Part shown: positions 1 to 9,240 of the stretch, one piece after another
Layout: every line of letters starts with the position of its first letter
Position numbering within the stretch: the stretch's first letter is position 1
Assembly: GCA_026003335.1 (NCBI GenBank)
Contig: BPHB01000001.1
Coordinates: forward strand, 186,001 to 250,000
Reading direction: 5' to 3'
DNA length: 64,000 nt
From: Chitinophagales bacterium
GTDB taxonomy: Bacteria > Bacteroidota > Bacteroidia > Chitinophagales > CAIOSU01
Position numbers and translations under genes: made by a program
Notes under the pieces: model-generated
Told to the model about the DNA's origin: nothing
The model's database searches: none
Seen by the model: the letters and a program-made list of their open reading frames with translations, nothing else

Positions 1-1
1 T

Positions 2-256
2 AGACCATTTGTTGACCGGGTGGTATGGGAGCGTATCCGGCAGGGCGCTGCTGGGGATATCACCCGCGAAGATAAAACGGCTTTGCTGGAAGTGCTCAAT
101 ACAGACGTGTGGTGGGGAAAGGAGAGAAGCCTCCTGGCAACTGCCCTGGGCACGGTAAGCGCCCATCTTGCCGCTTGCTTTGAAGGAACCCGGCAAAGCC
201 TGAAATATCCCGAAATGAAGGTGATGAAGGAAAACGGACAGGTACTGCGGAGATAA
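2..256 (+). CDS. cas1: Cas1, C-terminal part (type II)
   Basis: This is the 3' end of the spacer-integration nuclease Cas1, which forms the adaptation complex with Cas2. The open frame runs in from the window edge and begins R-P-F-V-D-R, the motif found near the end of type II Cas1 proteins (family knowledge). About 84 codons are visible and the catalytic Glu/His/Asp residues lie upstream of the window. A GTG at position 20 could be misread as a start but it is internal. cas2 follows 29 bp downstream and then the array, the usual cas9-cas1-cas2-array order of type II-C loci, so cas9 should lie just to the left. The subtype is inferred from order and repeat style, because Cas9 is not in view. 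Confidence 0.85.
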   Translation, partial: RPFVDRVVWERIRQGAAGDITREDKTALLEVLNTDVWWGKERSLLATALGTVSAHLAACFEGTRQSLKYPEMKVMKENGQVLRR

Positions 257-285: not shown

Positions 286-633
286 ATGGTAAAAAATCAT
301 TTCTCGCGCCTTAGTGCCTATCGCGTTATGTGGCTCTTTGTGATTTTTGATTTACCCACTGAAACCAAAGCCGACCGCAAAGCCTATGCGGAATTCCGGA
401 AAAAACTTCAGCGTCAGGGTTTTACCATGATGCAGTATTCCGTTTATATTCGCCATTGTGCCGGCAGCGAAGCTGCGGAAACATACATCAAAAAAGTAAA
501 AAGCTTTATTCCGGCTAAAGGGCATGTAAGCATTGTACAGATTACAGACAGGCAATTTGGCAATATCGTGAATTTCTGGGGGAGCCAACCAGCACCCCTC
601 CCCAAGGCACCTAAGCAACTGGAATTTTTTTAG
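286..633 (+). CDS. cas2: Cas2 (type II)
   Basis: CRISPR-associated protein Cas2, the scaffold subunit of the Cas1-Cas2 integrase. It has 115 residues, normal for type II Cas2. The N-terminal strand WLFVIFDLPTET carries the conserved Asp. A Y-S-V-Y strand, an H-V-S-I-V-Q-I-T-D-R strand and a short C-terminal tail follow, matching the ferredoxin-like fold of the family. The start at 286 is the first ATG; a second in-frame ATG at residue 15 (WLFV region) would still leave the core intact. It is co-directional with cas1 and ends 112 bp before the first repeat. Confidence 0.95.
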   Translation: MVKNHFSRLSAYRVMWLFVIFDLPTETKADRKAYAEFRKKLQRQGFTMMQYSVYIRHCAGSEAAETYIKKVKSFIPAKGHVSIVQITDRQFGNIVNFWGSQPAPLPKAPKQLEFF

Positions 634-639
634 TTAGGC

Positions 640-741
640 AATTAAAAATACAGAAAATGCCCCCCAACGTACCTGCCGGGGAGCATTTTCTTTTTACCGA
701 TATCCCTTTTAACCGATTGAAAATCAAAAGCTAGTTAGTGC
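640..741 (-). ncRNA. Candidate tracrRNA
   Basis: Read on the minus strand, about 741 to 712 resembles the + strand repeat. It shares C-TTT, then a T-rich stretch, then TTCAA and C in the same order, with a few mismatches and bulges, so it could pair with the first half of a crRNA repeat transcribed from the minus strand. A strong hairpin follows (GAAAATGC at 683-690 with GCATTTTC at 653-660, extended by C/G pairs) and then a T-rich tract, like a tracrRNA terminator. The pairing close to the spacer side is poor. Type II-C tracrRNAs often lie beside the array or cas9 (established). I infer the identity; it could be only a terminator with chance similarity to the repeat. Confidence 0.42.
653..695. 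terminator. Bidirectional intrinsic terminator after cas2
   Basis: GAAAATGC (653-660) and GCATTTTC (683-690) form a perfect 8-bp stem, extended by CCCC/GGGG pairing, with a T-run on both outer sides (690-695 on +, 642-650 read on -). It can end the cas operon on the + strand and the candidate tracrRNA or array transcript on the - strand. Confidence 0.7.
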
Positions 742-745
742 CTAG

Positions 746-3700
746 AATATCGGTTATCCATCTTTGTCTTCAAACCACAACACGTCCTCACCGCCGGCGC
801 TATGCAAATATCGGTTATCCATCTTTGTCTTCAAACCACAACTTGCATGCATCGAGACCTTGTCTGTAATATCGGTTATCCATCTTTGTCTTCAAACCAC
901 AACGACGCAAGCATGACTGTTAATATTAGTAGAATATCGGTTATCCATCTTTGTCTTCAAACCACAACTATTGCCCTGAACAATTGGATTCAAACAAAAA
1001 TATCGGTTATCCATCTTTGTCTTCAAACCACAACTATCCGTGTGGTACATGTCCCACTGCTTTGAATATCGGTTATCCATCTTTGTCTTCAAACCACAAC
1101 TCTGGAACACCGCAAGCCTTATCTTATCAGAATATCGGTTATCCATCTTTGTCTTCAAACCACAACAAAGCGAAGATAGCGATTACCTAAAGCAGAATAT
1201 CGGTTATCCATCTTTGTCTTCAAACCACAACTCGGGAGTAAAATAATAATCAATCTTTTGCAATATCGGTTATCCATCTTTGTCTTCAAACCACAACCCT
1301 GTTAGTAAACGCATCAATCGCAGGTTGAAATATCGGTTATCCATCTTTGTCTTCAAACCACAACCTATCCAATAGGATTAACGCTTACACCAACAATATC
1401 GGTTATCCATCTTTGTCTTCAAACCACAACGATAATTGGGAAGAGATGAAAGAATTTTTTAATATCGGTTATCCATCTTTGTCTTCAAACCACAACCGTT
1501 ATAAATCTTTTTTGCTAACGTGAGCGAATATCGGTTATCCATCTTTGTCTTCAAACCACAACTGCAGAAAAAGTTCTACGCGATACCGGCTGAATATCGG
1601 TTATCCATCTTTGTCTTCAAACCACAACTAAGGGGATATGCCGCCGCTCTCCTGCCAGAATATCGGTTATCCATCTTTGTCTTCAAACCACAACACCCGG
1701 CGTGAAGCCCTGACCGCACAGGAAAATATCGGTTATCCATCTTTGTCTTCAAACCACAACAGGATGCTGGCATTGGTGGAACTGTTGTGGAATATCGGTT
1801 ATCCATCTTTGTCTTCAAACCACAACACCGTGTGTGCACCGGCGCTGACACGATTGAATATCGGTTATCCATCTTTGTCTTCAAACCACAACTGTGATAA
1901 GATTTTCGAGTTCAGAGATGGTAATATCGGTTATCCATCTTTGTCTTCAAACCACAACCGCCCGATGCTATCGCTACGCCAATACTCAAATATCGGTTAT
2001 CCATCTTTGTCTTCAAACCACAACCATCACAGAAATTAACTAATTCCGCAATGTAATATCGGTTATCCATCTTTGTCTTCAAACCACAACTTGTAACTGT
2101 TGTTGTTCTTCCTTATTTTTAATATCGGTTATCCATCTTTGTCTTCAAACCACAACACCGTATCGATCTGAGGTTGGGCAATGTTAAATATCGGTTATCC
2201 ATCTTTGTCTTCAAACCACAACAGTCGGCTTTGAGCCGACTTTTTATAACAGAATATCGGTTATCCATCTTTGTCTTCAAACCACAACTCATGAGCGGTA
2301 TAAAAACCACAATGACAAGAATATCGGTTATCCATCTTTGTCTTCAAACCACAACATAGATATAGTAGGAAGTGGTGGATACTTTAATATCGGTTATCCA
2401 TCTTTGTCTTCAAACCACAACTGCCATAATATCCAGGTTACCGTGGCTGCCAATATCGGTTATCCATCTTTGTCTTCAAACCACAACTTTTTATTTAAAA
2501 AATAATCTAAAGACAAAATATCGGTTATCCATCTTTGTCTTCAAACCACAACCCGTGCCCATCAGCGTGGACGCGCCGCCAAAATATCGGTTATCCATCT
2601 TTGTCTTCAAACCACAACTGAATTGGTGCGCATCACCGCGCCCAGTTTAATATCGGTTATCCATCTTTGTCTTCAAACCACAACAAAGTAAAATGGGTGG
2701 GGCCGTACGAAGATAATATCGGTTATCCATCTTTGTCTTCAAACCACAACATTTGGCTATTTCAAATAAAGAAAAAAATTAATATCGGTTATCCATCTTT
2801 GTCTTCAAACCACAACTCTGCAAGGATACCTGCTCCTTGCCATAGAATATCGGTTATCCATCTTTGTCTTCAAACCACAACTTTAAGAAGAAGAAGAATA
2901 ACGAAAAACTAAATATCGGTTATCCATCTTTGTCTTCAAACCACAACTTATCAGCTATCAAGGTTTGTAAAAGACCAATATCGGTTATCCATCTTTGTCT
3001 TCAAACCACAACGACAACAATGGTGTACACAAAATCAGGTATAATATCGGTTATCCATCTTTGTCTTCAAACCACAACTAGCGCCAGCAATGTGGTGGCG
3101 GATGAAAAATATCGGTTATCCATCTTTGTCTTCAAACCACAACCATTAGATTGGGATTAGAGCGTGGTGCTTGAAATATCGGTTATCCATCTTTGTCTTC
3201 AAACCACAACCAAAGTCAGCGATAGTAGATATACGCAGGCAATATCGGTTATCCATCTTTGTCTTCAAACCACAACTTATACCTATTATTATATCCAAAA
3301 TAATGTAATATCGGTTATCCATCTTTGTCTTCAAACCACAACATACGCTTGCCAAGCTTGCGGTCAATGCTAATATCGGTTATCCATCTTTGTCTTCAAA
3401 CCACAACGTAGCATTGGATATTAAGACTCACGAGAAAATATCGGTTATCCATCTTTGTCTTCAAACCACAACCGTGCAATAGGATACGTTATCACCAGCG
3501 GCAATATCGGTTATCCATCTTTGTCTTCAAACCACAACCTGGCATAGTATGGTACATCTTGCCGTTATAATATCGGTTATCCATCTTTGTCTTCAAACCA
3601 CAACCAAATATTACGCACATCTTTCCACTTCAAGAATATCGGTTATCCATCTTTGTCTTCAAACCACAACACATCTTGGGTGATGACGTGGTCCGTGCAG

Positions 3701-6700
3701 AATATCGGTTATCCATCTTTGTCTTCAAACCACAACTGAAAACATGGTTGTGAATGGGTCATTCAAATATCGGTTATCCATCTTTGTCTTCAAACCACAA
3801 CAACTTATCTGGGCAATATTCTGCTACAAAAAATATCGGTTATCCATCTTTGTCTTCAAACCACAACTGAAATTAGGAATGTCAAAGAAGAGGAGTCAAT
3901 ATCGGTTATCCATCTTTGTCTTCAAACCACAACCGTGCAATAGGATACGTTATCACCAGCGGCAATATCGGTTATCCATCTTTGTCTTCAAACCACAACT
4001 ACTCACCACCCTTGTGGATGGTGATGGCAATATCGGTTATCCATCTTTGTCTTCAAACCACAACTACTCACCACCCTTGTGGATGGTGATGGCAATATCG
4101 GTTATCCATCTTTGTCTTCAAACCACAACGAACTTAGTATATATAAGTCATTTTGTGAAAATATCGGTTATCCATCTTTGTCTTCAAACCACAACCCGTA
4201 AAGCCCTGCACCCACAAGCCCGCTGAATATCGGTTATCCATCTTTGTCTTCAAACCACAACAAATCATGAGATGATGATCATCATGATCCCAATATCGGT
4301 TATCCATCTTTGTCTTCAAACCACAACCTCTTTATTCCATAATTTGATTTTTTACCAATATCGGTTATCCATCTTTGTCTTCAAACCACAACTCAGACTT
4401 GGTGAATCCCCTGATACGTAGCAATATCGGTTATCCATCTTTGTCTTCAAACCACAACCCAAACCTGTTGCGCATGAAACCAGGGAAGAATATCGGTTAT
4501 CCATCTTTGTCTTCAAACCACAACGACGTCATCAATCTTGTGACTGAACATTATAATATCGGTTATCCATCTTTGTCTTCAAACCACAACCTTATGGCGC
4601 CCTAAGCTGCCATCGGTGCGAATATCGGTTATCCATCTTTGTCTTCAAACCACAACCGAACTCGCAAGGGCGAATAGTGTAAATATAATATCGGTTATCC
4701 ATCTTTGTCTTCAAACCACAACCCATAATATATGGCTCTGATACAAACATTGAATATCGGTTATCCATCTTTGTCTTCAAACCACAACAGGGGTATGCAG
4801 CATGGTCGATGCTCTCCCAATATCGGTTATCCATCTTTGTCTTCAAACCACAACACCATGCCTCTGGAAATCAAACGCTACCCAATATCGGTTATCCATC
4901 TTTGTCTTCAAACCACAACTACGCCAGATTGGGATACGCAACAGCAATATCGGTTATCCATCTTTGTCTTCAAACCACAACTGGGCTTACAGAGGTGCAG
5001 GTAGCGCGCAAATATCGGTTATCCATCTTTGTCTTCAAACCACAACCAGCCTGACCATGTTGACATTTCGTGCGGGAATATCGGTTATCCATCTTTGTCT
5101 TCAAACCACAACTATGTCGAGATCCTCTACCCACAGAGATCTAATATCGGTTATCCATCTTTGTCTTCAAACCACAACTAAAACGACCTTGCGGGTAAAA
5201 AGGAGGTCAATATCGGTTATCCATCTTTGTCTTCAAACCACAACTTCGTCCAACGCCCGCCCATACGTGATAATATCGGTTATCCATCTTTGTCTTCAAA
5301 CCACAACATGATGATATATTGTTTATTGCAACCAGGAATATCGGTTATCCATCTTTGTCTTCAAACCACAACCGCTCAATACAAGCACTTAGGACTTATT
5401 GAATATCGGTTATCCATCTTTGTCTTCAAACCACAACAACTTGTCGGGCAATATTTTGCTACGTAAAATATCGGTTATCCATCTTTGTCTTCAAACCACA
5501 ACATTTTGATATATTTTTTACTCTGCCCAAAAATATCGGTTATCCATCTTTGTCTTCAAACCACAACCCGGAATTGGGTTTAAGTTACAAAAGAAGAATA
5601 TCGGTTATCCATCTTTGTCTTCAAACCACAACTTTTATCCTGTTGTGCCTTGCTGAGAGGAATATCGGTTATCCATCTTTGTCTTCAAACCACAACAAAT
5701 TCTTGCGCTGTCTCAATCATGCTAATATCGGTTATCCATCTTTGTCTTCAAACCACAACTGATGAACATAGCTGTTGTCATAGACGAATATCGGTTATCC
5801 ATCTTTGTCTTCAAACCACAACTAGTCCTGTTAATGTGTGTGCCCACGGAATATCGGTTATCCATCTTTGTCTTCAAACCACAACAAGCATAAGTATCCC
5901 CTAATATAGCAATTGAATATCGGTTATCCATCTTTGTCTTCAAACCACAACTAGGGGTATGCAGCATGTCGATGCTCTCCCAATATCGGTTATCCATCTT
6001 TGTCTTCAAACCACAACTAGAAACTGAAGCATGTGTTATTCAAAAGAAATATCGGTTATCCATCTTTGTCTTCAAACCACAACTGCGTGCTACCGTCCTC
6101 CCATACCCCGTTTAATATCGGTTATCCATCTTTGTCTTCAAACCACAACTCAAATGACTCCAGCTTCTTTAATGCCTTAAATATCGGTTATCCATCTTTG
6201 TCTTCAAACCACAACCCATGGCAAGATTTTCAACAGTACGGCTTCAATATCGGTTATCCATCTTTGTCTTCAAACCACAACCACAGGAAGTTATGCAGCA
6301 AGGCAGCTGCAATATCGGTTATCCATCTTTGTCTTCAAACCACAACATCGACTGCCGAATACAATTGTCTCCACGCAATATCGGTTATCCATCTTTGTCT
6401 TCAAACCACAACCAGCCTGCTTGAGGGCCCCCGGAGTGGCCAAAATATCGGTTATCCATCTTTGTCTTCAAACCACAACTGAAGTCGTTGTTTTAAACGA
6501 ATATCTGAATATCGGTTATCCATCTTTGTCTTCAAACCACAACGAATTATCCACCTCTGTATCATGCCCTCGAAAATATCGGTTATCCATCTTTGTCTTC
6601 AAACCACAACTGCGTGCCTCTGGCCTCAAGTTCATGGAAGAATATCGGTTATCCATCTTTGTCTTCAAACCACAACATCCTGCCTATTGCTTGGCGCCTA

Positions 6701-6941
6701 TGCACCAATATCGGTTATCCATCTTTGTCTTCAAACCACAACAATAGCATTATATATTACACCGGTAATCCTAATATCGGTTATCCATCTTTGTCTTCAA
6801 ACCACAACTGTGATGTACCTTATAATGTAATTCTAGAATATCGGTTATCCATCTTTGTCTTCAAACCACAACGTGCTCTAACGACATGCGTCATTGCCAC
6901 GCCATAATATCGGTTATCCATCTTTGAAATCAAACCACAAC
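746..6941 (-). CRISPR. Type II CRISPR array, 95 repeats
   Basis: Counted by hand: 94 copies of one 36-bp repeat (+ strand begins AATATCGGTTATCC and ends TCAAACCACAAC), plus a 95th copy at 6906 with three changes. Spacers are mostly 29-30 nt (28-31), giving a period near 66 bp. The first two spacers, 782-806 and 843-867, are only 25 nt. The minus-strand repeat begins GTTGTGG, which matches the GTT-type 5' end of type II crRNA repeats, so I infer transcription on the minus strand toward cas2, as known for type II-C. Some spacers are exact duplicates (3473-3502 and 3934-3963; 4000-4028 and 4065-4093). The degenerate 6906 copy and the terminal copy at 8165 place the decayed end on the right. Open frames across the array are repeat artefacts. 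Confidence 0.99.
6906..6941 (-). repeat. Degenerate CRISPR repeat
   Basis: Matches the array repeat except that GTCTTC in the middle reads GAAATC (three substitutions at repeat positions 22-24). It is the last repeat of the regular array and directly abuts phage-derived DNA at 6942. Confidence 0.95.
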
Positions 6942-7257
6942 CAGCATACGGTACACCCCTGCTGCCCACCCTCACAGCGTGCTCATTCTTGGCTATGATG
7001 CCGATGCTCCTGCGCAGCCGGCCCGCTTTAATTAGCAGGCTGCTGCTCAGGCGCTCGCGGCTGCGTCTGGCCACCGGCCACTTCGGCTCCTTGCGTTGCG
7101 GCCACCGGGTGAGCCGCGTATCAATGACCCCCCCCCGCGTGAAGCTGTACTTATAATAACCCACCGCCTCCATGCCCACCAGTCCCAGCAGGCGCTTCTG
7201 CAACGCCCCGAAGCCAAGCGCTACCTTATTCAGTTGGGACAAACCTCTTATTGTCAT
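6942..7257 (-). pseudogene. Mu gpG-like virion morphogenesis protein, truncated
   Basis: About 105 codons remain of a phage virion morphogenesis (tail completion, Mu gpG-like) protein. The sequence G-R-L-R-R-S-I-G-I and the final G-S-R-G-V-P-Y-A match the typical ending of the family, where Y-A is normally followed by an H-Q-F-G motif. Here the frame leaves phage sequence exactly at the repeat border after Y-A-G and continues as nonsense through repeats. It lies 88 bp downstream of the MuF gene, the normal F-G order of Mu-like head genes. It cannot make a complete protein. Confidence 0.65.
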
Positions 7258-7345
7258 TTTTTGCGTATATTTGTGATGCCAGTTGGTTCAGCAATGCTGT
7301 CCTCCTGGCTCCGAAGGCAGCTTTCATTAAGCTGTCTTCCGTTTT

Positions 7346-8164
7346 TTATATCCTGATCAATCTCTTGCGTCCTCCGCTAATCAGCGCTATCAGATTCACA
7401 TTTATAAATCCACTGTTCTTTTTGAATCCACCGATAGCGCCTTCCAGATCGCGCGCACCCGGCAGATTTTTAGTTTCCGGCAGCAGCAGCTTTGCTTTCT
7501 GATGGTTAGCAGTTGTGAGCGCCCGCTGAATCGAGCTTCTGTTTCCGGTGGTCATTTTGTATTCTGTTTGCACATCATTCACCAGAAAGTCGTATGTTTT
7601 CACATTGTTCAACTTTGGCCGCAGTATCACCCTGAATCCATAGCCCGATAGTCGCTCCGCAGCGTGCATGGCAAAATATCCTCCTGTGCTTTCATTGAAC
7701 TGTCTATAAATAAATTCCGATGGTAGCGAATCGAAAGCCCTTCTGCTTTCCCTGATCTGCTCAGGCGTATATTTCAGCGCCTGGTTGTGCTCCATGAAAT
7801 CAGCGATTTCCTTTTTCCCCTGTTCCTGGAGAGCGAAATAAGGGTGCGTCTCTCGGAATATCACTCCGGTTTTTGCCACATTATTTTGAAAGTTCTTCGG
7901 CAGTTGGGGCTTGGGCAATCGGCTGTCCGGAGTGATCTGCTGCGCATCAGATTTCCTGTGCATCGGTATCACATCACAGCGGCAATTCCAATCATTTGGC
8001 GGGTAATAGGTATTCCAGAAAGGATCGTTCACCGGCCTTGTGATACCTTGGAGTATTCGATGAGAATCTCTAACCCTCTCATCGCCTGCTGTTTCATATC
8101 TAAGTAGCAGCCCTTCTTTGTTTTGCTCATATTCAAGCCATCGTGCTGCCATTTGCGCTGATGC
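7346..8164 (-). pseudogene. MuF-type phage head protein with CdiA-like toxin tail, 5' truncated
   Basis: The first part carries the MuF/SPP1 gp7 signature: a T-A-G-D-E-R-V-R-D-S-H segment, L-x-G-I-T-R-P-V-N-D-P-F-W, then P-P-N-D-W-N-C-R-C-D-V. The last ~100 residues (a segment beginning V-I-L-R-P-K-L-N-N-V-K-T, then E-Y-K-M-T-T-G-N) resemble CdiA C-terminal nuclease domains. MuF proteins with C-terminal toxins are known from temperate phages. The frame is open right up to the repeat at 8165, so the N-terminal portion is missing. The stop codon is at 7346. The toxin assignment is by motif memory only. Confidence 0.65.
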
Positions 8165-8200
8165 AATATCGGTTATCCATCTTTGTCTTCAAACCACATC
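8165..8200 (-). repeat. Terminal CRISPR repeat
   Basis: Identical to the array repeat apart from one change near its outer end (CACATC in place of CACAAC). It is separated from the rest of the array by the 1,223-bp phage block and directly abuts the broken SBBP gene on its right. Confidence 0.95.
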
Positions 8201-9240
8201 CATTCAACTGTATATACATTGCCAGCATTGTCTGCAGCACACGATATAAAAATCCTCAAGAGGGCTTCCATAATAGGTTCCACACAAGCTCGTGCCATTA
8301 GGGTTGAGCTTTATAAAATACCCATCGACAATTAAAGGTGATGCGATAGAGGTTTGGTGAGCTCCTGTGCTTGCTATATTGGGTGATGCAGAAGATTTGG
8401 TATTACCTACTGCAAAAACATTCCCTGAAGGATCTGCCCAGCAAGAATTAGCATATTCCCAATCGGTATTATCAGGAATATTTCTGCCTACATAAGTTCC
8501 CCAGATTCTTACCAAAGGGTCTATTCGAGGTGATTTACTTTTATCATACTATAGAATGTGAAAAGAAACTACATTATCTTGCACTACCCACTCAGCCGGT
8601 ATTTGTTTGCCATTTTGATATACCTTTAATGCGCCTTCGATGATGTTACCGAAGGAGGTTATAAGCATTAATTCATTTTGTTGGGTTATTTCCAATGCTA
8701 CAGCTTGAATCCATATTTTTATTTGTTGGTAATCATCTTACGGCTCCAAAATGAAATCATATTCCAGGTTTCATTCATGATTATAGAAATGCAAATCAAT
8801 TACTTTGTAGATATTTTGATAACAAACACTTTCGTAACTCTTGACGAACAAGGCGGGTTTTATGCCATGGGGCACGTTATAATAATTGGTGTAACCCGGT
8901 AATTCTTTTTCACGAATAATTTTTGTTTCGGCAGAAATGTTCAACCAATTTACATCTACACGATAAATGCCCATGGAATCGGGAATCAACTCACGTTCTT
9001 CAGGCAGCAGATGTAATTTTCTGTGTTCCTCTTTTTTCCAGCTTTCCACCCGAAAAAGCTGGTAATGCATCCCATCTTTTTTCAAATGATAATACAGTCC
9101 ATTTGCCGATCCGCTGAACAACACATCAGGACGGGTTGATAATGCTGGTCGCGGATTTGGCCTTGGTTTTCGGTAAATGAAGCATCCGCGTTGGTAATAA
9201 ATAATATTGCTGTGAGCGTGGAAAGAGTTAAGCGAGTAAG
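8201..9240 (-). pseudogene. SBBP (beta-propeller) surface protein, decayed
   Basis: Fragments in three frames together make the N-terminal half of an SBBP-repeat protein: E-N-Q-G-Q-I-R near 9180, then D-V-L-F-S-G-S-A-N-G-L-Y-Y-H-L, V-Y-Q-N-G-K-Q-I, I-D-P-L-V-R-I-W-G-T-Y-V-G, and A-D-P-S-G-N-V-F-A-V-G-N-T. The breaks I see are a frameshift near 9138, another near 8774, an in-frame TAA near 8725, an in-frame TAG at 8549-8551 and a frameshift near 8250. The 3' end is lost where the terminal CRISPR repeat begins. Intact members are secreted cell-surface proteins with repeated propeller blades. The decay suggests that the array edge is an old recombination border. Confidence 0.75.

Follow-up and report, generated by a model that had tools for sequence, protein, structure and literature searches.

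Closest described systems

Spacer acquisition by type II-C CRISPR (clustered regularly interspaced short palindromic repeats) systems has been described in Riemerella anatipestifer and Flavobacterium columnare, where the genes are laid out as cas9-cas1-cas2-array with the trans-activating CRISPR RNA (tracrRNA) upstream of cas9, new spacers of 28-32 nt enter at the leader end on the cas side, and repeats come to flank the foreign DNA (PMC6008519, PMC8092290). The array considered here is like them in layout, in its presumed entry point and in the flanking of foreign DNA by repeats. It lies in a 64,000-nt stretch of DNA from a Chitinophagales bacterium (the window), which comprises bases 186001-250000 of the 2.08-Mb contig BPHB01000001.1 in a genome of 3.9 Mb (G000). 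Unlike those new spacers, however, the foreign DNA in one slot, 6942-8164 (the block), is 1,223 nt of phage-like sequence, and the slot appears to be the oldest of the array.

In II-C systems new spacers are added at the repeat transcribed last, which is the one beside the cas genes; the repeat at the opposite end is an "extra" one, the oldest, and is prone to mutation (PMC12080349, PMC6008519, PMC8092290). The leader region of the window adjoins cas2, and thus the block would occupy the oldest slot and not a recent one. Its position in the array is observed directly, while its status as oldest relies on the polarity of the published arrays.

Kilobase-scale foreign DNA within a II-C array was also met elsewhere in the present survey, as a 5.7-kb element in genome G376 (L077:2435-8144) that has a tyrosine-integrase-like gene, recognised by eye, and sits inside a II-C repeat. 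II-C repeats may therefore serve as attachment sites. The block resembles this element in scale and setting, but it has no integrase and lies between two whole repeats, whereas the element splits one. Integration by casposases, which is carried out by Cas1 only, leaves long DNA between target-site duplications. The block is likewise long DNA between copies of a duplicated target, but that target is a CRISPR repeat, and the block has no polymerase gene (casposon ends were not sought). As regards its gene content, the MuF polymorphic toxin genes of temperate phages join a MuF domain to a variable C-terminal domain (PMC5576092), and one gene in the block does the same, although its 5' part is missing and it lies between CRISPR repeats. 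In a search of open-licence papers we recognised no report of a kilobase-sized phage fragment lying flush between CRISPR repeats.

A phage fragment between two repeats

The original prediction, made from the letters of the window, had placed a 1,223-bp phage block at 6942-8164, exactly between repeats, and these coordinates are correct: the repeats at 6906-6941 and 8165-8200 adjoin the block directly. It is foreign DNA between two repeats, as a spacer is, but it departs from the length of about 30 nt that the integrase sets. The other 94 slots are 25-33 nt long, a wider spread than the 29-30 nt first given for them.

Read on the CRISPR RNA (crRNA) strand, the block holds the downstream part of a MuF (F-like) gene followed by the upstream part of a gene for a G-like protein, and both reading frames are open. 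The claim that these adjacent genes are severed at the repeat borders holds as well. Homology of the F fragment to phage proteins begins at its residue 1 (8164), right at the border, and in all seven phage or prophage relatives inspected a related stretch (e.g., HLRTEYNHAV or YLKTEYEQAV) lies just upstream, where the array has the repeat instead. At the other border, G follows F in five of the seven relatives and aligns to the last residues of the fragment (VPYA, last codon at 6942), the other two having no G match. F and G genes are near neighbors in Winogradskyella phage Peternella_1 as well. The first ATG of the F-like frame is at 8152, and the variable C-terminal domain of the MuF protein is whole. 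We recognised the F and G pieces alone, with no recombinase gene and no att-type split repeat, the flanking repeats being whole.

Relatives of the block are distant. Protein identity is 36-62% at six IMG/VR loci, below 60% for 234 of 235 phage records, and at most 57% in other genomes (16 with a match, of 395 searched), while DNA-level matches to the block are short and weak. The true source phage of the G000 block is thus absent from the collections searched, and no phage near-identical to it, or to the second insert described below, was found in them. Genome G000 has no second DNA copy of the block. The trinucleotide composition of the block is ordinary for the genome (20% of 319 windows are at least as deviant), so that composition is no proof of foreign origin.

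The original prediction also spoke of a MuF-type toxin gene. A MuF domain is indeed present (Phage_Mu_F; Table 1), but for G000 no family match bears out the toxin part of the claim: the C-terminal domain of its F fragment has no significant match in Pfam, among solved structures or among phage proteins. It can be aligned with the corresponding domain of the second insert, in genome G560, which does match CdiA_C. Elsewhere in G000, L022 (G000:C1:1875123-1875365) has a weak, stop-containing protein match to the MuF C-terminal domain (E 1.8e-4, 30% identity).

A second insert in genome G560

Genome G560 belongs to a distantly related bacterium. Its array (L071), a different II-C array, has its last perfect repeat at L071:3255-3301, followed by 1,184 nt of phage DNA in the oldest slot, beyond which the repeat's first 29 nt recur without a mismatch (L071:4486-4514). 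Besides cas1, the one gene here that was compared with a family model, the locus carries a cas9-like gene (1,566 codons) and a cas2-like one. On the crRNA strand, which we assigned from the repeat orientation and a 27/47 anti-repeat match, the insert holds the downstream part of a MuF gene and then the first 98 residues of a tape-measure-like gene. It is the C-terminus of this MuF protein that matches CdiA_C (PF18451, E 2.8e-6).

A prophage-like region of the same genome (L146:11622-12804) has the same gene order and is collinear with the insert, with identities of 91% (positions 1-340) and 82% (846-1184) on either side of a diverged middle. Aligned sequence extends to positions 1 and 1184 of the insert, and in the prophage-like region the phage genes run on beyond both. 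This collinearity identifies the G560 insert as a contiguous piece of a relative of that prophage.

A 15-nt match to the last 15 nt of the repeat lies 452 nt beyond the outer repeat of G560 (L071:4486-4981), and the stretch between the two repeat pieces encodes a fragment of an unidentified protein. The outer repeat might on this evidence have been split by foreign DNA, which we offer only as a suggestion, because matches scoring 15 also occur in L059, L107 and L108 and a match of 15 nt could be due to chance.

The two inserts are alike in occupying the oldest slot, in a length of about 1.2 kb, in starting within MuF and in their orientation on the crRNA strand. If slots were random, both would fall in the oldest one with p of about 4e-4, and two random 1.2-kb pieces of phage would both overlap MuF with p of about 2e-3; both values are rough and post hoc.

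Survey of II-C arrays

A search of 395 genomes of the class with the cas1_NMENI profile gave 84 matches over the cut-off. From these we took 68 loci (two from G000) and left out about 17 with cas1 near a contig end, together with one broken cas1. II-C arrays could be read in 48 of the 68, which with the window and genome G003 makes 50 arrays with 1,469 slots; L062 and L122, which are not II-C, were set aside, as were secondary repeat families in L073, L075, L082, L101 and L108. Eight further loci from the order of G560 supplied seven more arrays, for a total of 57.

Long inserts are present in two of the 57 arrays, or in two of the 43 (counted by eye) whose old end is visible for at least 1.3 kb or otherwise known. 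The other slots over 60 nt contain runs of N, whose hidden content cannot be judged (L058, L082, L106, L115), or pieces of repeat (L058, L076, L085, L104, L106), or, in L077, consist of the 5.7-kb element described above. Because terminal repeats are often truncated, partial repeats were also sought beyond the old ends of the 50 arrays, blind to phage genes. In many arrays a truncated repeat lies one ordinary spacer further out from the old end; beyond about 250 nt from it, L071 scored 29 and the next best of the 50 arrays scored 15. A scan of the whole loci of the seven further arrays gave nothing firm. Among the survey loci, a MuF profile built for this work detected frames in three places only: the window, L071 and, as a weak match, L105, a locus that yielded no array.

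Two apparent third cases were rejected. The 2,508-nt gap that seemed to be present in L139 was gone on rescanning, and a gap of 1,125 nt in L140 starts within the cas1 part of the locus and was judged to reflect a chance match.

Spacer matches

Two more cas1 genes are present in genome G000: the second, of II-C type, goes with an array of 49 perfect repeats (L079, G000:C2:545993 onward), and the third with an array of another type that runs into a contig end (L122, end of G000:C3). None of the 170 spacers from the three arrays, the list for the third being incomplete at the contig end, matches the block convincingly. The best match has 14 of 19 letters (74%), compared with best values of 67-71% in each of three shuffles, and the best match at ordinary spacer length has 19 of 29. 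The original prediction held that the phage had been sampled by this array on either of its readings; this is so for the insert itself, but no other spacer adds to it convincingly.

Spacers of the window's array gave weak matches only against phages (E 2) and plasmids (E 0.5), and those of the G560 array gave none against phages. Among 298 genomes of the order there was one 38-nt match to the G000 array (E 2.9e-4, in G258), on an AT-rich spacer. Two patterns made from near-duplicate spacers were not found in IMG/VR.

Origin of the inserts

On balance, we consider it probable that the block is genuine: a contiguous piece of a Mu-like phage, taken up at a II-C repeat as an over-long "spacer" while the repeat was duplicated. 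What is observed directly is the geometry of the locus, its flush borders, an insert that follows phage gene order without interruption, the II-C context and the second case in G560. We favor a capture that depended on Cas1-Cas2, since flush borders with a repeat on each side are what the staggered reaction of these proteins produces. Cas1-Cas2 would open the repeat at its two borders, one strand per side; the staggered cut would normally take a prespacer of 30 nt, and fill-in would copy the repeat. In the present case the ends of a 1.2-kb phage fragment would have gone to the two cut borders. The integrase may have joined both 3' ends, an outcome like that of a casposase; alternatively, integration may have been aborted, with fill-in of the resulting staggered break and joining of the phage fragment to close it. 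We infer both the agent and the choice between these two routes. It may be that the array machinery at times banks whole chunks of phage genes. The length of spacers is thought to be fixed by a Cas1-Cas2 ruler, and two flush inserts of about 1.2 kb would show uptake of gene-sized DNA, resembling what the presumed transposase ancestor of the system did. They would, in addition, define an event that could be sought in long-read data and reproduced with purified proteins.

Several observations weigh against capture by Cas1-Cas2. Pre-spacers only a few nucleotides too long are integrated less well by Streptococcus pyogenes Cas1-Cas2, chiefly at the second site (PMC8390005), and with such a ruler a direct, concerted insertion of 1.2 kb would be highly abnormal; it is for this reason that we retain the route through a staggered break. 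The G000 block has no close phage relative in the data searched, and its outer flanks are therefore unseen. Its frames are intact in the oldest slot, beside a decayed gene, so that its entry may have been a late one, by way of the old end instead of the leader; late entry, rapid growth of the array or retention may each account for this. The outer repeat in G560 stops short, at 29 nt, and no insert is present at the old end of the array in its sister genome G731, whose repeat is identical. For a comparison of protospacer adjacent motifs there is one good reference protospacer, too few to decide for or against. That reference belongs to spacer 12 of the G560 array (29/30, in the genome's own prophage-like region) and has the 3' flank GGGTATGTTG; a weak candidate protospacer for the G731 array has CAAATCCCTC, unlike that of G560. 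The leader-side flank of the G560 insert, read in the related prophage, is CCATAATGGA. If the outer 30 nt of each insert were ordinary spacers, the flank to be expected on the inner side is GAATATGAGC in G000 and GGATGACCCC in G560.

The original prediction had offered, besides a long acquired insert, an assembly path that joined two ordinary 30-nt spacers of one phage (6942-6971 and 8135-8164) through phage reads. Of these the insert is the better reading, given the flush borders, the repeats on both sides and the G560 case, and we regard an assembly error as very unlikely. Such an error should indeed give the same flush topology, and the third array of the genome does run into a contig end, so that this assembly is known to break in an array. 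But the same error would need to have struck the oldest slot of a second genome as well, where the insert is 9-18% different from the prophage-like region of that genome outside the diverged middle. In G000, moreover, the contig is 2.08 Mb long, the DNA of the block is found nowhere else in the assembly, and exact repeat-spacer-repeat duplicates of 102 and 101 nt have been kept apart, each in its own context, which suggests (but does not prove) that the assembly had linkage over more than 30 nt. Real spacers from a single phage might instead have recombined later with phage DNA through their 30-nt identities, so that the sequence between them was replaced by the phage stretch. Phage recombinases are able to use short homologies, and the final topology would be reached with no over-long integration at all. 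We nevertheless think this quite unlikely, since it needs two spacers of the same phage and strand, from sites 1.2 kb apart, in adjacent oldest slots, twice independently, and no other spacer matches the block convincingly. The possibility that a phage-borne repeat recombined with the array was rejected: the exact repeat core pattern is absent from IMG/VR and from GTDB r220 contigs (the latter may omit the window's genome), and the prophage-like relative in G560 has no repeat at the insert borders.

The location of both inserts at the old end would also suit a capture in which Cas1-Cas2 took no part, whether by end-joining of a phage fragment into a break there or by later trimming of a larger insertion. 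The G560 outer repeat cut at 29 nt, with the 15-nt match 452 nt further out, fits an old end that may have taken more foreign DNA, and the 5.7-kb element of L077 shows foreign DNA inside a repeat. Random breaks, however, would not be expected to leave a repeat on each side with phage sequence flush against both, and in G560, too, the insert is flush at both ends; we hold this course to be unlikely. A different proposal, compatible with any route of entry, is that the insert was kept as cargo, the truncated MuF protein with its C-terminal domain being made from the oldest repeat and having some effect, for instance that of a toxin-like gene or an addiction gene associated with the CRISPR locus. 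In both inserts the complete 3' part of MuF lies on the crRNA strand in open frames, and the G560 domain, with which that of G000 can be aligned, matches CdiA_C. II-C repeats can carry promoters (PMC12080349, PMC8092290), and if those of the window do likewise, the MuF fragment might be transcribed from the oldest repeat. Against this, expression of the MuF frame is hypothetical, no immunity gene is evident (none was sought), the G000 domain lacks a convincing family match, and there are two cases in all, so that we give retained cargo only a slim chance. What the retained MuF part might do is purely a matter of hypothesis. That the two inserts agree in slot, strand and MuF content makes it worth asking, in a way that can be tested, whether the old end of II-C arrays has some function. 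In its broadest form, for which we think the prospects poor, II-C adaptation would bank kilobase fragments of phage at the oldest repeat, toxin-type MuF genes would be kept by means of a repeat promoter, and the old end would be a docking and expression site for phage effector domains. As for guides, the block could provide at most about 30 nt beside repeat 6906, and the remainder is unlikely to serve.

The locus and its repeats

The features of the window that concern the array are collected in Table 1.

Table 1. Array-associated features of the window, in window coordinates unless a locus is named
Feature	Position	Strand	Evidence or remarks
cas1, 3' end	1..256	+	cas1_NMENI TIGR03639 E 1.3e-90; full gene L002:7336-8256, begins upstream of window
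cas2	286..633	+	PF09827 E 1.1e-18, TIGR01573
Leader region on cas2 side, presumed entry point for new spacers	634..745		Polarity by analogy with PMC6008519, PMC8092290, PMC12080349
Regular part of II-C array	746..6905	- (crRNA strand)	94 perfect 36-nt repeats and 94 slots of 25-33 nt
Second-oldest repeat	6906..6941	-	33/36 to consensus, three adjacent internal changes (TCT to AAA)
Phage insert in oldest slot, 1,223 nt	6942..8164	-	Flush with both repeats
Phage G-like (virion morphogenesis) gene, 3' part cut off at repeat	6942..7257	-	Relatives align to last residues; Pfam weak (PF05069 E 0.012, below cut-off)
Phage F-like (MuF) gene, 5' part cut off at repeat	7346..8164	-	Phage_Mu_F PF04233 E 1.9e-14, partial (profile positions 47-112 of 112); phage homologues
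Oldest (extra) repeat	8165..8200	-	35/36
Decayed gene adjoining oldest repeat	8204..9124	-	One main frame, several stops, frameshift by eye

The gene for cas9 (TIGR01865, E 9.9e-129) and the rest of cas1 lie just upstream of the window, and with cas2 these make up the gene content of a type II-C system. The gap between cas2 and the array is too small for a csn2 or cas4 gene and none was seen between cas9 and cas1, no search dedicated to either having been made. An anti-repeat (25/36) at L002:2568, upstream of cas9, is followed on its strand by a hairpin and a run of T, seen by eye, as befits a tracrRNA; from its position and orientation the minus strand of the window is the crRNA strand.

The array has 96 repeats in total, 94 of them perfect, and the imperfect pair is at the far end. 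A related array in genome G003 likewise has its last repeat altered at its end. No internal change other than the three adjacent ones in repeat 6906 occurs in the 96 repeats, and those three adjoin the insert; they could be the trace of a faulty fill-in or merely of age. The GAAATCAAACCACAAC end seen in this repeat also occurs in repeats of genome G436 (L057) and, reversed, in L114. The two newest spacers (782-867) are 25 nt long, the shortest in the array, and the 33-nt spacer adjoining the abnormal repeat (6873-6905) exceeds every other ordinary one in length. Two pairs of spacers are identical (42 and 49, 50 and 51), and the protospacers of 62 and 80 nearly coincide, these spacers differing by one base in length (3437-3538, 3898-3999, 3964-4129, 4789-4818, 5952-5981).

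Copies of the repeat of this array are also found elsewhere in G000, whereas none of the second II-C array's repeat was found at up to three mismatches. The tracrRNA was considered as a source of such ectopic copies and rejected, as the best anti-repeat lies upstream of cas9. A lone copy (35/36) at L019:7706-7741 (G000:C1:137706-137741) interrupts a decayed gene with weak similarity to Phage Tail Collar (PF07484, E 0.011, below the cut-off), which resumes in another frame beyond it. Two degenerate copies (28/36 and 31/36), 30 nt apart, lie at L020:8703-8738 and 8769-8804 (G000:C1, about 437703-437804), between a permease gene and a beta-propeller gene, and this pair could be either a decayed mini-array or a regulatory repeat pair.
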